A stretch of DNA of 34,733 nt from Desulfohalobiaceae bacterium (GTDB lineage Bacteria; Desulfobacterota; Desulfovibrionia; Desulfovibrionales; Desulfothermaceae): NCBI GenBank assembly GCA_021737615.1, contig JAIPDR010000014.1, forward strand, positions 1-34,733, in the 5' to 3' direction. A program made the translations under genes and the position numbers. Shown one piece after another: positions 14,774 to 34,241 of the stretch; position 1 is the stretch's first letter, and each line of letters opens with the position of its first letter. The notes under the pieces are model-generated. The model was not told the DNA's origin. It was given only the letters and a program-made list of their open reading frames with translations, and did not search any database.

Positions 14774-14787
14774 CCAGCGGTCAGGGG

Positions 14788-14900
14788 TCAGCCCTGCCTC
14801 TGGCAGTGCTGACCTATAACTATTTTTTTTTTGTTAAAATACACAACAACACTATTATACTGTAGATATAGAATAGAATCCACAACTGCCAGTTTGATCA
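14788..14900 (+). repeat. Repeat R1: hairpin plus ACTGCCAGTTTGATCA box, upstream of proS
   Basis: 5' box 14788-14813 forms the hairpin TCAGC-c-CTGCC/GGCAG-t-GCTGA with loop TCT, followed by CTATAACTATT. 3' box 14885-14900 is ACTGCCAGTTTGATCA. Both boxes recur at 21480-21586 (R2), while the A+T-rich middle differs. CTGGCAGT (14800-14807) is exactly complementary to ACTGCCAG (14885-14892), so it can pair with the 3' box or, as part of the hairpin, with CTGCC, but not both. Confidence 0.75.
14831..14858 (+). promoter_or_regulatory. Candidate promoter of proS
   Basis: -35 TTGTTA (14831-14836) and -10 TATTAT (14853-14858), spacer 16; an overlapping TATACT (14856-14861) gives spacer 19. It lies in the A+T-rich middle of R1, 115 bp before proS. 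Confidence 0.45.
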
Positions 14901-14922
14901 GAGTAGAAAATAAGGCTCTCCT

Positions 14923-19415: not shown

Positions 19416-21302
19416 ATGAAGACAGCCGTACTGGAACGCATCGTCTGCCCTGCGGACATCCAGAATCTTTCCATCAAGGAAATGGAGATCCTGGCCGAAG
19501 AACTCCGGGAGCTGATAATCAGCACCATCTCCAAGACAGGTGGACATCTGGCCCCCTCCCTGGGGGTAGTGGAGCTGACCCTGGCCATCCTCAATCTTTT
19601 CAATCCCGACAAGGACAAGATCATCTGGGACGTGGGGCACCAGGCCTATGCCTACAAGATCCTGACCAAGAGGCGGGAGCTGTTTTCCACCATCCGGCAG
19701 TATCAGGGCCTGAGCGGGTTCCCCAGCCCAAAGGAATCAGGATACGACCACTTCGGAGTGGGGCATTCCTCCACCTCCATTTCAGCAGGATTGGGCCAGG
19801 CCGTGGCCAGAGACCTTCTCGGCCGGAATCACAAGGTTCTGGCCGTGATCGGGGACGGATCAATGACCGCGGGCCTGGCCTATGAGGGCCTCAATCAGGC
19901 CGGCGGCCTGGACAAGGACCTGGTAGTGGTCTTAAACGACAACGAGATGTCCATCTCCAAGAATGTCGGGGCTCTGTCCTCTTTCTTCAGCAGGAAACTG
20001 GCTGATCAACGCTACCTGCGCTTTCGGGAAGACCTGAAATCCTGGCTGGAGCAGGTCCCGCGCATCGGGGAAGAGCTTGTCAACTACGCCCGCAAGAGCG
20101 AAGACTCCCTGAAGAGCTTCTTCACTGCAGGCATGCTCTTCGAAGCCTTCAAATTCACCTATGTCGGGCCCATCAACGGCCACAACCTGCGCCAGCTGCT
20201 CAAGGTCTTTGAACAGGTCCGGAACTTGAAGGGGCCGGTTCTGATCCACACCCTGACCACCAAAGGCAAAGGCTACCAGCCGGCGGAAAAGAACCCGACC
20301 TTTTATCATGGAGTCGGTTCTTTCAAACCGGAGACAGGGGAACGCTGGAAAAAGAAGTCGGATCTGCTGCCGAACTACAGCAAGGTCTTTGGCGAAAGCC
20401 TCTGCCGCCTGGCCAGGGAACGAAAGGACATCCTGGCCATCTCTGCGGCCATGCCCGAAGGTACGGGGCTGGACTGCTTCCGGGAGGAATTCCCGGACAG
20501 GTTTTTCGACGTCGGCATCTGTGAACAGCACGCCGTGACCTTTGCCGCCGGGTTGGCCACCCAGGGCTTCAAACCGGTGGTGGCCATCTATTCCACTTTT
20601 CTGCAGCGTTCCTTCGACCAGTTGATCCACGACGTCTGTCTCCAGGAACTGCCGGTCACTTTCTGTCTGGACCGCGGGGGGCTGGTCGGCGAAGACGGAG
20701 CGACCCACCACGGGGCCTTTGATCTCAGTTACCTGCGCCTGATTCCCAACCTGACCCTCATGGCTCCCAAGGACGAACCCGAACTCCAGGCCATGCTGCT
20801 CACGGCCCTTTCCCTGCCGGGTCCGGCCGCCATCCGCTACCCCAGAGGCAGGGGGCCGGGGCTGGCCCTGTCCCAAAACCCGCATTCCCTGGAGATAGGC
20901 CGGGGCGAACTTCTCAGGCCCGGGAACGAGGCCATGATCCTGGCAGCGGGCAGCCTGGTTACCCCGGCTCTCAGGGCGGCCGAAGAGATGGAACAGGAGT
21001 CTCCCTCGAGCATCGGGGTCATCAATGCCAGGTTCATCAAACCCCTGCCGGAAAAGGAAATCCTGGATGCCGTCCAATCCTGCTCAAAACTGATGATCCT
21101 GGAAGAAAACGCTCTGGCCGGAGGCTTTGGCTCCGCTGTCCTGGAATACTTGAACGATCATGCCCTGACATCCGGTTTGACCGTCAAACGTATCGGACTG
21201 CCCGACCGCTTCATTGAACACGGTCAGGTCTCACGGCTGCACCAGCTGATCGGGCTCGACGTCCCGGGAATCAAGGAGGCCCTGCGCGAACTTCTGGACT
21301 AG
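19416..21302 (+). CDS. dxs: 1-deoxy-D-xylulose-5-phosphate synthase
   Basis: 628 residues. This thiamine-diphosphate enzyme makes DXP from pyruvate and glyceraldehyde 3-phosphate, the entry to the MEP pathway. Motifs: DVGHQAYAYKILTKR (71-85), the ThDP site GDGSMTAGLAYEGLN (147-161) with LNDNEMSIS, and EDGATHHGAFDLSYLR (426-441). The start ATG 19416 follows GGAG at 5 nt, directly after the ispA stop. It is the last gene of the xseA-xseB-ispA-dxs run. A GTGAGGA repeat begins 2 nt after its stop, and the 666-bp gap that follows holds a candidate structured RNA. Confidence 0.97.
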   Translation: MKTAVLERIVCPADIQNLSIKEMEILAEELRELIISTISKTGGHLAPSLGVVELTLAILNLFNPDKDKIIWDVGHQAYAYKILTKRRELFSTIRQYQGLSGFPSPKESGYDHFGVGHSSTSISAGLGQAVARDLLGRNHKVLAVIGDGSMTAGLAYEGLNQAGGLDKDLVVVLNDNEMSISKNVGALSSFFSRKLADQRYLRFREDLKSWLEQVPRIGEELVNYARKSEDSLKSFFTAGMLFEAFKFTYVGPINGHNLRQLLKVFEQVRNLKGPVLIHTLTTKGKGYQPAEKNPTFYHGVGSFKPETGERWKKKSDLLPNYSKVFGESLCRLARERKDILAISAAMPEGTGLDCFREEFPDRFFDVGICEQHAVTFAAGLATQGFKPVVAIYSTFLQRSFDQLIHDVCLQELPVTFCLDRGGLVGEDGATHHGAFDLSYLRLIPNLTLMAPKDEPELQAMLLTALSLPGPAAIRYPRGRGPGLALSQNPHSLEIGRGELLRPGNEAMILAAGSLVTPALRAAEEMEQESPSSIGVINARFIKPLPEKEILDAVQSCSKLMILEENALAGGFGSAVLEYLNDHALTSGLTVKRIGLPDRFIEHGQVSRLHQLIGLDVPGIKEALRELLD

Positions 21303-21330: not shown

Positions 21331-21479
21331 ATCAGAGGACGGGAGGACTGATTCTGAAGATGCTGGGATGTAAATGCCGGCCTACGGCTCGGCGTGCCTG
21401 TCCCCTGGTCAACTCCCCTCGTAGCGGAGTCTGCGGGTATATCGGCCCGGATGCCGACTCTCGAATCTGTGATTAGGTG

Positions 21480-21586
21480 TCAGCCCTGCCTCTGGCAGTG
21501 CTGACATATAACTATTGAATATTTAGGAAAATAACTGCTAGACTTTTAACTTATGTTGTTGATTTCGATTACTGCCAGTTTGATCA
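21480..21586 (+). repeat. Repeat R2: hairpin plus ACTGCCAGTTTGATCA box
   Basis: 5' box 21480-21505 is identical to R1 over 26 bases (hairpin loop TCT), then ATATAACTATT against CTATAACTATT in R1. 3' box 21571-21586 is identical to R1. The middle differs but is also A+T-rich and promoter-like. CTGGCAGT (21492-21499) and ACTGCCAG (21571-21578) are complementary. Confidence 0.75.
21515..21544 (+). promoter_or_regulatory. Candidate promoter for the structured RNA
   Basis: -35 TTGAAT (21515-21520), 18-bp spacer, -10 TAGACT (21539-21544). Transcription would start near 21551, toward the foldback structure. No protein gene follows on this strand. Confidence 0.35.
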
Positions 21587-21895
21587 ATGGAGAAACTCCA
21601 GTTTTGAGCATTGGCACCTCTTTGCGAATCGGGCAACAGGGTTTTCTTGCGCGACCTCGCTTAGAGGTTCTCAGGTTTTCTTAGGCTCGCGAAATGGAGG
21701 AAATCCGGCACTCAATCTTTGTTAACTCAGGCAGAACAAAGGCCTTGGGCCATTGAGTGCCGGAAGGGGGCAGGGATCCCCCAGGAGCGAGCCATTGAAA
21801 ACCGAGAGCCGGAAGCGTTTAAGCAAAAGAGAGCCCTGTGACCGGTTCGCATTCTTGGATGGAGTTTCATACCAGATTTGCCTCTGGCAAATCTG
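21551..21895 (+). ncRNA. Candidate structured RNA, rod with three-way junction
   Basis: Stems read by eye, outside to inside: GAAACTCCA (21592-21600) with 21860-21868; TGCGAATCGG (21623-21632) with 21842-21851; ACAGGGTTTTCTTGC (21636-21650) with 21823-21839, two bulged A; CGCTT (21658-21662) with 21813-21817; GGTTCTC-A-GGTTTTC (21666-21680) with 21797-21810; GGCTCGC (21684-21690) with 21787-21793. At the tip, CCGGCACTCAAT (21705-21716) pairs with 21752-21763, CTTTGTT with AACAAAG, and GGGGG (21766-21770) with 21778-21782. Four pairs are G-U on this strand and would be A-C on the other. The 3' end is a hairpin AGATTTGCC/GGCAAATCT (21874-21894). TGGAGAAACTCCA (21588-21600) can also fold locally. 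It matches no RNA family I know. No reading frame looks real. Confidence 0.5.
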
Positions 21896-21950
21896 ACCTA
21901 GTTCAGTATTCCGCGTTTTGACCTCCCCCCTCCGCATTCCGCGTTTCCCT

Positions 21951-21985
21951 ACTCCTCACTCTCACTTTTCACTCCTCACTCTCAT
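21951..21985 (-). repeat. GTGAGGA repeat at the fadD 3' end
   Basis: The minus strand reads ATGAGAGTGAGGAGTGAAAA, then GTGAGAGTGAGGAGT. It supplies the last residues (DESEE) and the TGA stop of fadD. Just beyond is CCGCATTCCGCGTTTCC (21932-21948, plus strand), as also found beside the ahbB copy. Confidence 0.8.
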
Positions 21986-23657
21986 CCCCCTGCTCCTTGA
22001 GATCGCGACGCAAAACCTTGCCCACGATGGTCTTTGGCAGTTCCTCCCGGATCTCGATCCGCCTAGGGACCTTGTATCCGGCCAGCTTTTCCCGGCAGAA
22101 CCCGGCAATCTCCTTTTTATCCAGGGTTTCTCCCTTTTTGGGCACGACATAGGCCTTGATGATTTCGCCCCTGGTCTTGTGGGGCACCCCGACACAGGCC
22201 GCATCCAGGACCTTGGGGTGCTCGTAGAGGACTTCCTCTATCTCCCGGGGATAGACATTCAAGCCGCCGGAAATAATGAGATCCTTTTTGCGGTCGACGA
22301 TAAAAAAATAGCCTTCCTCGTCCATGTAGGCGATGTCTCCGGTGTACAACCAGCCCTCCCGGAGGGTCTCGGCGGTTTCCCCGGCCCGGTTCAGATAGCC
22401 CTGCATGACCTGGGGGCCTCTGACTACCAGCTCTCCGATCTCACCCTGGGGCAGGGCCCTGGTTCCGGTCCGGATATCCACGATCAAGGCATCCGTATCC
22501 GGGAAAGGGAGACCGATGGAACCTTTCTTCCGCTTGCCTCGCAGGGGATTGAAATGAGTGATCGGCGAGGCTTCGGTCAGTCCGTAGCCTTCGATCAGAT
22601 CGGCTCCGGTCACCTCCTTGAACTTCTTAAGGAGCTCGACCGGCATGGGGGCTGAGCCGGTCACGGAGATGCGAATGGATTGCAAATCGAAATCCTGGAT
22701 GTTTTTCTGCTGGAGCAGGGTATTGAAAACAGCCGGAGCGGACGGAAAGATGGTCGGTTTGAGCTTGTTGATGGCCTTTAAGACCTCCTGGGGAACGAAC
22801 TGGGGATAGGGGGCCACGGTAGCGGCCAGGGCCACGGCAAAATTGAGACAGACCGTCAGCCCGTAGACATGAAAATAGGGCAGCAATCCCAGAAAGATTT
22901 CCGGTTCTTTTCCGATATCGTGCAGGACAACGATGCACTGCTGGACATTGGCAGCCAGGCTGTCGTGGCTGAGCTTGACCCCCTTTGGCTGTCCGGTCGT
23001 GCCTCCGGTATACTGGATCGCGGCCAGGTCCCTGGAAGGATCCACCGAAACCGGCTGAAAAGCGGTTCCCTGCTGCATGACGTCCTTCCAGGCAAAGATC
23101 CTCTGCCTGTCAAAGGGCACTCTGACCCTGGTGCCTTCCCGCCAGGCCTTTAGCGGGTAAAGCAGATTCAAAGGAAAAGAGAGGCTATCGCCGACCGAGG
23201 TGTAAATCATCTTTTCCAGGCCCAGCCTGGACTCCAGGGAATGGATCTTCGGCCAGAGCCGGTCCAGGGCGATCAGGAAACGGGTTCCGGAATCCGTGAA
23301 CTGGTGGACCAGCTCCTTTTCCATATACAAAGGATTGGTCATGACCACCACCCCCCCTGCCTTGAGGGCTCCGAAATAGCTGATAACCGTCTGGGGAAGG
23401 TTGGGCAGCATGATCCCGACCCTGTCGCCTTTATGCAGCCCGAGACGGGTCAGATTCGCGGCCAGGATCTCAGCCCGGTCCTTCAAGCGGGCGTAGTTGA
23501 GCTTCATGTTCTGAAAGACGAGGGCCGGCCTGTCCGGGTGATCCCTGGCCGATCGGTCCAGATATTCAAACAGAGGCAGGGATTCGTATTCGAGATGAAA
23601 GCTGACATTGGGGTCATAGCTCTTCAGCCAGAGCCGGTTGATCTCGTTCTCAAACAT
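21969..23657 (-). CDS. fadD: Long-chain fatty acid-CoA ligase
   Basis: 562 residues. The AMP-forming ligase activates fatty acids to acyl-CoA. P-loop YTGGTTGQPKG (216-226), EGYGLTEASP (356-365), GWLYTGD, then the hinge DRKKDLIISGG and the C-terminal lysine motif GKVLRRDL. The start is ATG 23657 (MFENEINRLW), with GGAG 5 nt upstream; an ATG at 23711 lacks a ribosome-binding site. The C-terminal DESEE and the stop derive from the GTGAGGA repeat. Chain length specificity is inferred from overall similarity. The gene stands alone, 200 bp from the methyltransferase upstream. Confidence 0.9.
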   Translation of the reverse strand: MFENEINRLWLKSYDPNVSFHLEYESLPLFEYLDRSARDHPDRPALVFQNMKLNYARLKDRAEILAANLTRLGLHKGDRVGIMLPNLPQTVISYFGALKAGGVVVMTNPLYMEKELVHQFTDSGTRFLIALDRLWPKIHSLESRLGLEKMIYTSVGDSLSFPLNLLYPLKAWREGTRVRVPFDRQRIFAWKDVMQQGTAFQPVSVDPSRDLAAIQYTGGTTGQPKGVKLSHDSLAANVQQCIVVLHDIGKEPEIFLGLLPYFHVYGLTVCLNFAVALAATVAPYPQFVPQEVLKAINKLKPTIFPSAPAVFNTLLQQKNIQDFDLQSIRISVTGSAPMPVELLKKFKEVTGADLIEGYGLTEASPITHFNPLRGKRKKGSIGLPFPDTDALIVDIRTGTRALPQGEIGELVVRGPQVMQGYLNRAGETAETLREGWLYTGDIAYMDEEGYFFIVDRKKDLIISGGLNVYPREIEEVLYEHPKVLDAACVGVPHKTRGEIIKAYVVPKKGETLDKKEIAGFCREKLAGYKVPRRIEIREELPKTIVGKVLRRDLKEQGDESEE

Positions 23658-23857
23658 GTGAACTCCGTATACCGGAAGCCGGCTGTAAAGCCGGTCTTTC
23701 GTTACATCCATAACAATTATGGCAGTAACTGCTTAAATGACTTTAAAATTGGGGTTCATCCAGTTTTTGCGTACTTTAAGTTCTTAAGCTAACAGCTAAC
23801 CGCACAGGTCCACAAATTTCAGCTCACGGAAAGAGCTCTGCAATTTGAACCCGGAGC

Positions 23858-32612: not shown

Positions 32613-32699
32613 GCCGGGGTGGCGGAATTGGTAGACGCACGGGACTCAAAATCCCGCGCTCCTTGGAGCGTAAGGGTTCGACTCCCTTCCCCGGCACCA
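32613..32699 (+). tRNA. tRNA-Leu (anticodon CAA), likely integration site
   Basis: 87 nt with a long variable arm (GCGCTCCTTGGAGCGT) and an encoded CCA. Acceptor arms GCCGGGG/CCCCGGC. Anticodon loop CTCAAAA gives CAA, reading UUG. An integrase gene follows 221 bp downstream, so the tRNA 3' end probably holds the attachment core (attL). The other attachment site is not in the window. Confidence 0.97.
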
Positions 32700-34131: not shown

Positions 34132-34141
34132 TTTCAAATTT

Positions 34142-34199
34142 ACGGGGATAGGGAGGCGCACCCGAAAAGCCGGTTCCCTGGCCGGCCTTCCCCGTTTTT
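34142..34199 (+). terminator. Terminator of the integrase gene
   Basis: ACGGGGATAGG (34142-34152) pairs with CCTTCCCCGT (34186-34195), one bulge, followed by TTTTT (34195-34199). Confidence 0.7.
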
Positions 34200-34241
34200 A
34201 TGGATATCAAGGATCAGGGATGTCAACAGGGGGAGAAGGTT

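Follow-up and report, generated by a model that had tools for sequence, protein, structure and literature searches.

A 666-bp gap between a dxs gene and an AMP-forming ligase gene of a Desulfohalobiaceae bacterium holds a long hairpin, which raises the question of whether this is an undescribed RNA gene, as a first-pass annotation proposed, or a long foldback mobile element, which it named as the main alternative. The locus lies in a 34,733-nt contig stretch (the "window"). Region 21540–21900 folds as RNA into a single long rod at −157.7 kcal/mol (z −8.3), an energy reached by none of 100 shuffled sequences. The stems are where the first-pass annotation had placed them, and so is the two-armed tip, which comprises a CCGGCACTCAAT/ATTGAGTGCCGG arm (21705–21763) and a GGGGG-CAGGGAT-CCCCC arm (21766–21782). 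The minus strand folds nearly as well (−133.9 kcal/mol, z −5.9), and thus the element is a near-palindrome. The neighboring genes and the parts of the element are as follows:

19416–21302, + strand: dxs, the upstream neighbor (named by inspection)
21479–21505, no strand: left REP-like hairpin GTCAGCCCTGCCTCTGGCAGTGCTGAC, seen in the sequence, which recurs left of most own-genome copies and elsewhere in the genome
21515–21544, + strand: promoter-like TTGAAT-N18-TAGACT inside the repeated left flank, replaced by unrelated sequence in copies L019, L022, L023, L024 and L033
21575–21600, + strand: left end motif CCAGTTTGATCAATGGAGAAACTCCA, whose GAAACTCCA can pair with TGGAGTTTC at the rod base
21621–21675, + strand: 5′ outer arm of the rod (from the fold), including the helix H1 strand GGTTCTC; H1 covaries between genera
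21676–21704, + strand: 5′ core block TTTTCTTAGGCTCGCGAAATGGAGGAAAT, with the family consensus end GGGGGAAAC
21705–21763, + strand: tip arm of the hairpin type, CCGGCACTCAAT...ATTGAGTGCCGG (from the fold); elsewhere an 88–92-nt loop or a 35–68-nt hairpin is found here
21766–21801, + strand: 3′ core block GGGGGCAGGGATCCCCCAGGAGCGAGCCATTGAAAA, holding the 5-bp tip arm, with the consensus end TTAGAAAA
21802–21868, + strand: 3′ outer arm of the rod, terminating in TGGAGTTTC (sequence, fold and copy alignment)
21869–21875, + strand: right end motif ATACCAG, beyond which own-genome copies diverge
21873–21895, no strand: right REP-like hairpin CAGATTTGCCTCTGGCAAATCTG (sequence and fold)
21969–23711, strand opposite to dxs: AMP-forming ligase, the downstream neighbor (named by inspection)

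The element is larger than the rod first described, as the base of the rod can close by pairing of GAAACTCCA (21592–21600) with TGGAGTTTC (21860–21868), and REP-like hairpins flank it. A purine strand that had been read as exposed, GAAATGGAGGAAAT, is a degraded form of GGGGGAAAC. In the rest of the family, GGGGGAAAC can pair with the same CCCCC that the 5-bp arm uses, and this competition makes the two pairings mutually exclusive. As for coding content, we rejected a 71-aa minus-strand ORF (21722–21937), which extends beyond the element and looks like chance.

Searching the draft genome that contains the element (G000) returned 46 matches at about 40 places, that is, at least 40 copies, the best full-length relatives being 79–90% identical to the window element. 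Many of the copies are cut off by the end of a contig, which is typical of repeats in draft assemblies. A single-copy RNA gene is not compatible with so many scattered, diverged copies. By eye, the aligned copies share a layout of a REP-like hairpin (GTCAGCCCTGCCTCTGGCAG..CTGAC), an AT-rich stretch, CCAGTTTGATCAA.GAAGAAACT, the rod, GAAGTTTCATACSAG and further REP-like hairpins, and those to the right of the rod occur in various states. The AT-rich stretch exists in several unrelated versions, one of which carries the promoter-like boxes. At 14783–14912 of the window, downstream of an ispG/gcpE-like gene, lies another left module without a core, made up of a REP-like hairpin, an AT-rich stretch and CTGCCAGTTTGATCAGAGTAGAAA; this shows that the left flank also exists as an independent repeat.

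No Rfam family matched the element at E ≤ 0.5 (the best scores were 16.2 and 14.6 bits, E 0.58 and 0.84) and nothing over it reached the gathering threshold, which agrees with the first-pass statement that no known family has this layout. Elsewhere in the window, an int-alpA RNA (RF02996) was detected above the gathering threshold (52.3 bits) at 34141–34212, about 1.4 kb past a tRNA-Leu (32613–32699) and close to where the window ends; int-alpA RNA is a small RNA that is usually integrase-linked. A DNA search of 60 relatives confined the core to the same genus and family. Pattern scanning for the 3′ block across 84,980 species gave 64 matches, all in metagenome-assembled genomes labeled Desulfohalobiaceae; a pattern scan of viral contigs returned 0 matches, and there were none in a plasmid collection. 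Using a covariance model built from 24 diverse cores, we detected the core in 12 of 297 genomes of Desulfovibrionales, distributed over three families and seven genera. About 35 cores are present in a genome that we take to be Desulfohalobium retbaense DSM 5692 (G015) and 62 in another relative (G006). Passages found in the D. retbaense genome paper (PMC3035252) make no mention of such repeats, and our literature search found no paper on an ISL3 MITE. The rod element is a member of an undescribed mobile hairpin family of sulfate-reducing Desulfovibrionales. We also looked for a rule in the gene context. An upstream co-oriented gene was present for 16 of 18 own-genome copies and for 13 of 19 elements in D. 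retbaense; about two-thirds of elements follow such a gene, yet no consistent rule holds across genomes.

The ends of the elements are well defined in relatives. Terminal inverted repeats include GGCTCTTCGTCACAG/GTCAAAGAACC, GTAATCCTTCACGGGG/..TTAC and others. Elements of D. retbaense and G006 begin with GGCTCTTCG.CACAG and end with GTC(A/G)AAGAACC. Core-bearing copies are flanked by exact 8-bp duplications in 20 of 26 cases in D. retbaense, with 4 more at one mismatch, and in 16 of 31 cases in G006, with 9 more at one mismatch. Subfamily I runs from GTAATCCTTCACGGGG to ..TTAC and has exact 8-bp duplications in 6 of 13 core-bearing copies (three more at one mismatch). Subfamily II runs from GTAACTATTCACC to ..TTAC; of 6 core-bearing copies assigned to it, 4 have exact duplications, and further exact cases fell into other classes in the scripted classification. 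Subfamily III ends in GTGTCCGCC. The same core is found within at least three sets of ends. Nesting is seen in L127, where a subfamily II element contains one of subfamily I with the duplication GCTGAACT/GCTGAATT; this case illustrates how new outer ends can be acquired by a core. The elements are about 200–310 bp long, and by eye their predicted ORFs are short or enter from outside, with none common to the copies. In D. retbaense copies L288–L307, most target duplications are rich in A when read on the plus strand of the element, and some A-rich ones (L189, L190) lie in a run beside a terminator-like hairpin; insertion in this species seems to favor A-rich tracts in one orientation.

An intact 1.34-kb ISL3 element in D. 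retbaense (PF01610, E 2e-85) has the ends GGTTCCTCACACAAATC and an 8-bp duplication, AATTTCTT, and adjoins a core-less copy. We call the D. retbaense and G006 ends "ISL3-like" based on their GG-TC termini, their 8-bp duplications and this neighboring element. The terminal repeats are similar, not identical, and match only in the first bases, and thus an ISL3 transposase is a presumptive partner. G006 likewise has an ISL3 insertion sequence whose ends resemble those of its elements without being identical. No autonomous element with exactly matching terminal repeats was found, and 1.4–1.8-kb spans between G006 ends contained no transposase. The GTAA ends look IS66-like, but G003 and G007, both of which have such ends, yielded no IS66 transposase.

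The dispersed own-genome copies, together with the inverted ends and 8-bp target duplications of relatives, bear out the foldback mobile element that the first-pass annotation had offered as its alternative. We consider it likely that the window element is a degenerate copy of a high-copy, non-autonomous, MITE-like foldback transposon family of Desulfovibrionales. In the window's own genus, aligning copies by eye brought out neither clear terminal inverted repeats nor target duplications, and the element is flanked there by REP-like hairpins. This flanking could instead point to a REPIN-like composite, moved in that genus by a Y1 (RAYT-type) rather than a DDE transposase. Y1 transposase (PF01797) matches occur in the genus, including G002 and, with the best E-value of 2e-11, G001. 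However, the match in the window's own genome is weak (8e-5), the core is common to elements with clear 8-bp duplications, and REP-like left modules also exist without it, as at 14783–14912. We consider this reading unlikely for the genus.

The part that the elements share across genera is the core. Three motifs are near-invariant, TTTTCTT/TTAGAAAA, GGGGGAAACC and GGGGGCAGGGAT-CCCC (the third reading GGGGGCA(G/A)GGAT(G)CCCC), and the stems between them change jointly. In an alignment with tips cut to eight bases per side (A1), 96.3% of cells are paired and 13 of 20 pairs show two-sided changes. The covariation score is 0.356, compared with 0.101 for shuffled and at most 0.064 for slid alignments, and RNAalifold independently reported 14 two-sided pairs. 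Homologues with covarying stems, which the first-pass annotation had suggested looking for, are thus present. Both GGGGG strands are kept in nearly all members and the CCCCC can pair with either, whereas the window copy has GGAGG in place of one of them. A U-U or U-UU internal loop, a 12–13-nt purine bulge and an AAA strand are imperfections retained across genera. In five copies (L102, L033, L038, L039 and L067), from two genomes, the 3′ block GGGATCCCGTGTTCACGAGCC substitutes for GGGATCCCCCATGAGCGAGCC, with a small local hairpin in place of the CCCCC strand.

Tips fall into two classes, a hairpin of 35–68 nt or a loop of 88–92 nt (exactly 90 in 50 of 75), and these are swapped on otherwise similar rods both within genomes and between G006 and D. 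retbaense. The interior of the loop is near-random, with an identity between lineages of 0.461 compared with 0.440 after shuffling, so its length is constrained and its sequence is not. In type A tips of all lineages the near-random interior lies between fixed loop ends, CGGACCG..AGAGTCCGG or CCGACCG..AGAGTCGGG.

Perfect hairpins are prone to correction of one arm by the other, and covariation and rod shape might be by-products of such palindrome mutagenesis, through template switching between arms, acting on a functionless core. The neutral decay of young copies (see below) would suit this explanation. It does not account for the persistence of specific imperfections and invariant unpaired motifs across genera, or for a loop that keeps its length while its sequence drifts, and we regard it as very unlikely.

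Does the core act as RNA? The first-pass annotation had argued for a plus-strand transcript from G-U pairs and from the promoter-like sequence upstream. Among own-genome copies, single stem changes comprise 45 to A-C, 31 to G-U and 51 to other mismatches, with 2 compensatory doubles. Because A-C changes are at least as frequent as G-U changes, individual copies decay without strand-specific selection. Between lineages, G-U and A-C are about even when counted by kinds of change. The promoter-like boxes recur in the left flank of many own-genome copies, but are missing from others and, by eye, have no counterpart in other genera; no conserved promoter or terminator was seen. In relatives, the plus strand is mostly opposite to the G-rich (leading) strand, and a plus-strand transcript would therefore run head-on to replication. 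Together, these results do not support the proposed transcript. Divergence among own-genome copies is about 0.015–0.02 over much of the core and 0.07–0.10 in the tip, with the ends also above the core; as with transposons, the source copies seem to be the target of selection.

These data also bear on a further possibility, that the core is a genuine non-coding RNA, acting in trans or in cis from either strand, which binds a protein or other partner via its invariant G-rich strands and was spread by mobile ends. Strong covariation with invariant unpaired motifs, conserved internal loops and the lower divergence of the core relative to tip and ends are consistent with this, and plus-strand RNA energies are better in most lineages, although not in all. 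On the other hand, the young copies lack a G-U preference, no conserved promoter or terminator accompanies the core, plus-strand transcription in D. retbaense would oppose the direction of replication, and each genome has dozens of copies. We consider a non-coding RNA of this kind unlikely, and an RNA product of the core is unproven. The element is more than junk, yet not an established RNA gene.

The orientation of the cores provides another line of evidence. On the 2,864,304-bp D. retbaense chromosome, positive GC skew extends to about 1.29 Mb and negative skew begins at 1.43 Mb. All 18 cores in the first half are on the minus strand, while 15 of 17 in the second half are on the plus strand (Fisher 4e-8), and 33 of 35 thus have a single orientation relative to replication, in which the G-rich plus strand is the leading-strand template. 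Cores of G006 show the same direction (p 8e-4), as do those of the window's genome, where the bias is not significant (p 0.23). As a simplification, every copy counts as independent in the Pearson and Fisher tests.

Core-less copies with the same ends make an informative comparison. D. retbaense has seven, 5 of them with exact 8-bp duplications, and their common junction is at a 5-bp repeat, AGACG. Only 2 of the 7 have the usual orientation (p 5e-4 versus cores, with small numbers). Among nine core-less copies of G006, with a common junction at GAAAGTGG, 5 are in the usual and 4 in the opposite orientation, again small numbers and partly assigned from contig-level skew or from cores on the same contig. 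As core-less siblings are unbiased, the bias goes with the core and not with the ends, and we rejected an insertion preference of the ends as its cause. We also rejected asymmetric hairpin stability in D. retbaense, where plus- and minus-strand energies with DNA parameters are equal within about 4 kcal/mol; given this, a sequence-specific polar effect may lie behind the bias. For several G-rich quadruplex repeats in E. coli, mutation is more frequent if the G-rich strand serves as lagging-strand template, with exceptions (PMC10530614), a pattern that fits loss of wrong-way cores by slippage.

It is conceivable that the core is instead a polar element of replication or chromosome organization that must face one way (for example, a fork-protein site or a single-strand initiation hairpin), with wrong-way copies selected against. 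The biases in D. retbaense and G006 and their absence from core-less siblings would be expected, and the near-equal strand energies would require polarity to stem from sequence. However, the bias is not significant in the window's genome, copy number varies widely, and presence in only 12 of 297 genomes of the order argues against an essential chromosomal function, which leads us to regard this explanation as improbable.

For the MITE-like foldback transposon family that we favor, the observations suggest the following scenario. Gene-less elements would be moved by transposases supplied elsewhere that recognize their ends, ISL3-like in D. retbaense and G006 and of the GTAA type in others, producing the 8-bp target duplications observed. 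The conserved middle core folds as a bulged rod whose GGGGG / CCCCC / GGGGG triad permits two exclusive pairings, and it has been kept by compensatory change as ends were exchanged, partly via nesting of element in element. In active master copies, the core most likely has a cis-acting role as folded single-stranded DNA or RNA, and the copies they leave behind decay. Replication is the most likely source of the orientation bias: the hairpin would be lost when the G-rich strand is the lagging-strand template. This loss may often occur by slippage between short direct repeats, yielding core-less derivatives of 60–80 bp. As such derivatives have intact ends and target duplications, the core is probably dispensable for insertion. 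A less probable alternative is that the core is an independent functional module of RNA or ssDNA that works in a replication-polar manner, combines a 90-nt loop of fixed length with a G-rich strand switch, and was captured by several unrelated end types.

Compared with known systems, the elements of relatives resemble bacterial MITEs and foldback elements of the ERIC, Correia/NEMIS and RUP type in being short, gene-less and dispersed, with inverted ends, target duplications and deletion derivatives. They differ in having a core with covarying stems over seven genera and in several end sets. ISL3 insertion sequences have ends starting GG-TC and 8-bp duplications like the D. retbaense elements, which, unlike them, lack a transposase; other subfamilies end in GTAA or GTGTCCGC. 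Large structured non-coding RNAs in Rfam share the long bulged rod, invariant loops and covariation, whereas this element is multicopy and mobile, has no Rfam match and is known here from DNA sequence alone. Pseudomonas REPINs, which are moved by RAYTs and whose spacer matters by length and hairpin capacity, are likewise mobile hairpins with compensatory changes (PMC3116915), and own-genus copies have REP-like hairpins at their flanks. However, at about 300 bp the element is much longer, its interior rather than its ends is conserved, and relatives' elements have 8-bp duplications and ISL3-like ends, whereas REPIN/RAYT movement occurs without target duplication.

Bacterial MITEs are usually identified by their ends and regarded as inert. 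In this family it is the interior that is conserved: it shows compensatory changes between genera and has a loop constrained only in length, whereas tips and ends are exchangeable. The strong orientation bias relative to replication occurs in D. retbaense, a cultured type strain whose genome is finished. Whether a functional nucleic-acid fold can be carried by miniature elements is thus open to direct testing. The approximately 100 hairpins also form a natural set for studies of replication-orientation-dependent deletion. If the core were an independent module, it would represent a selfish or chromosome-level structured element of a hitherto undescribed kind.
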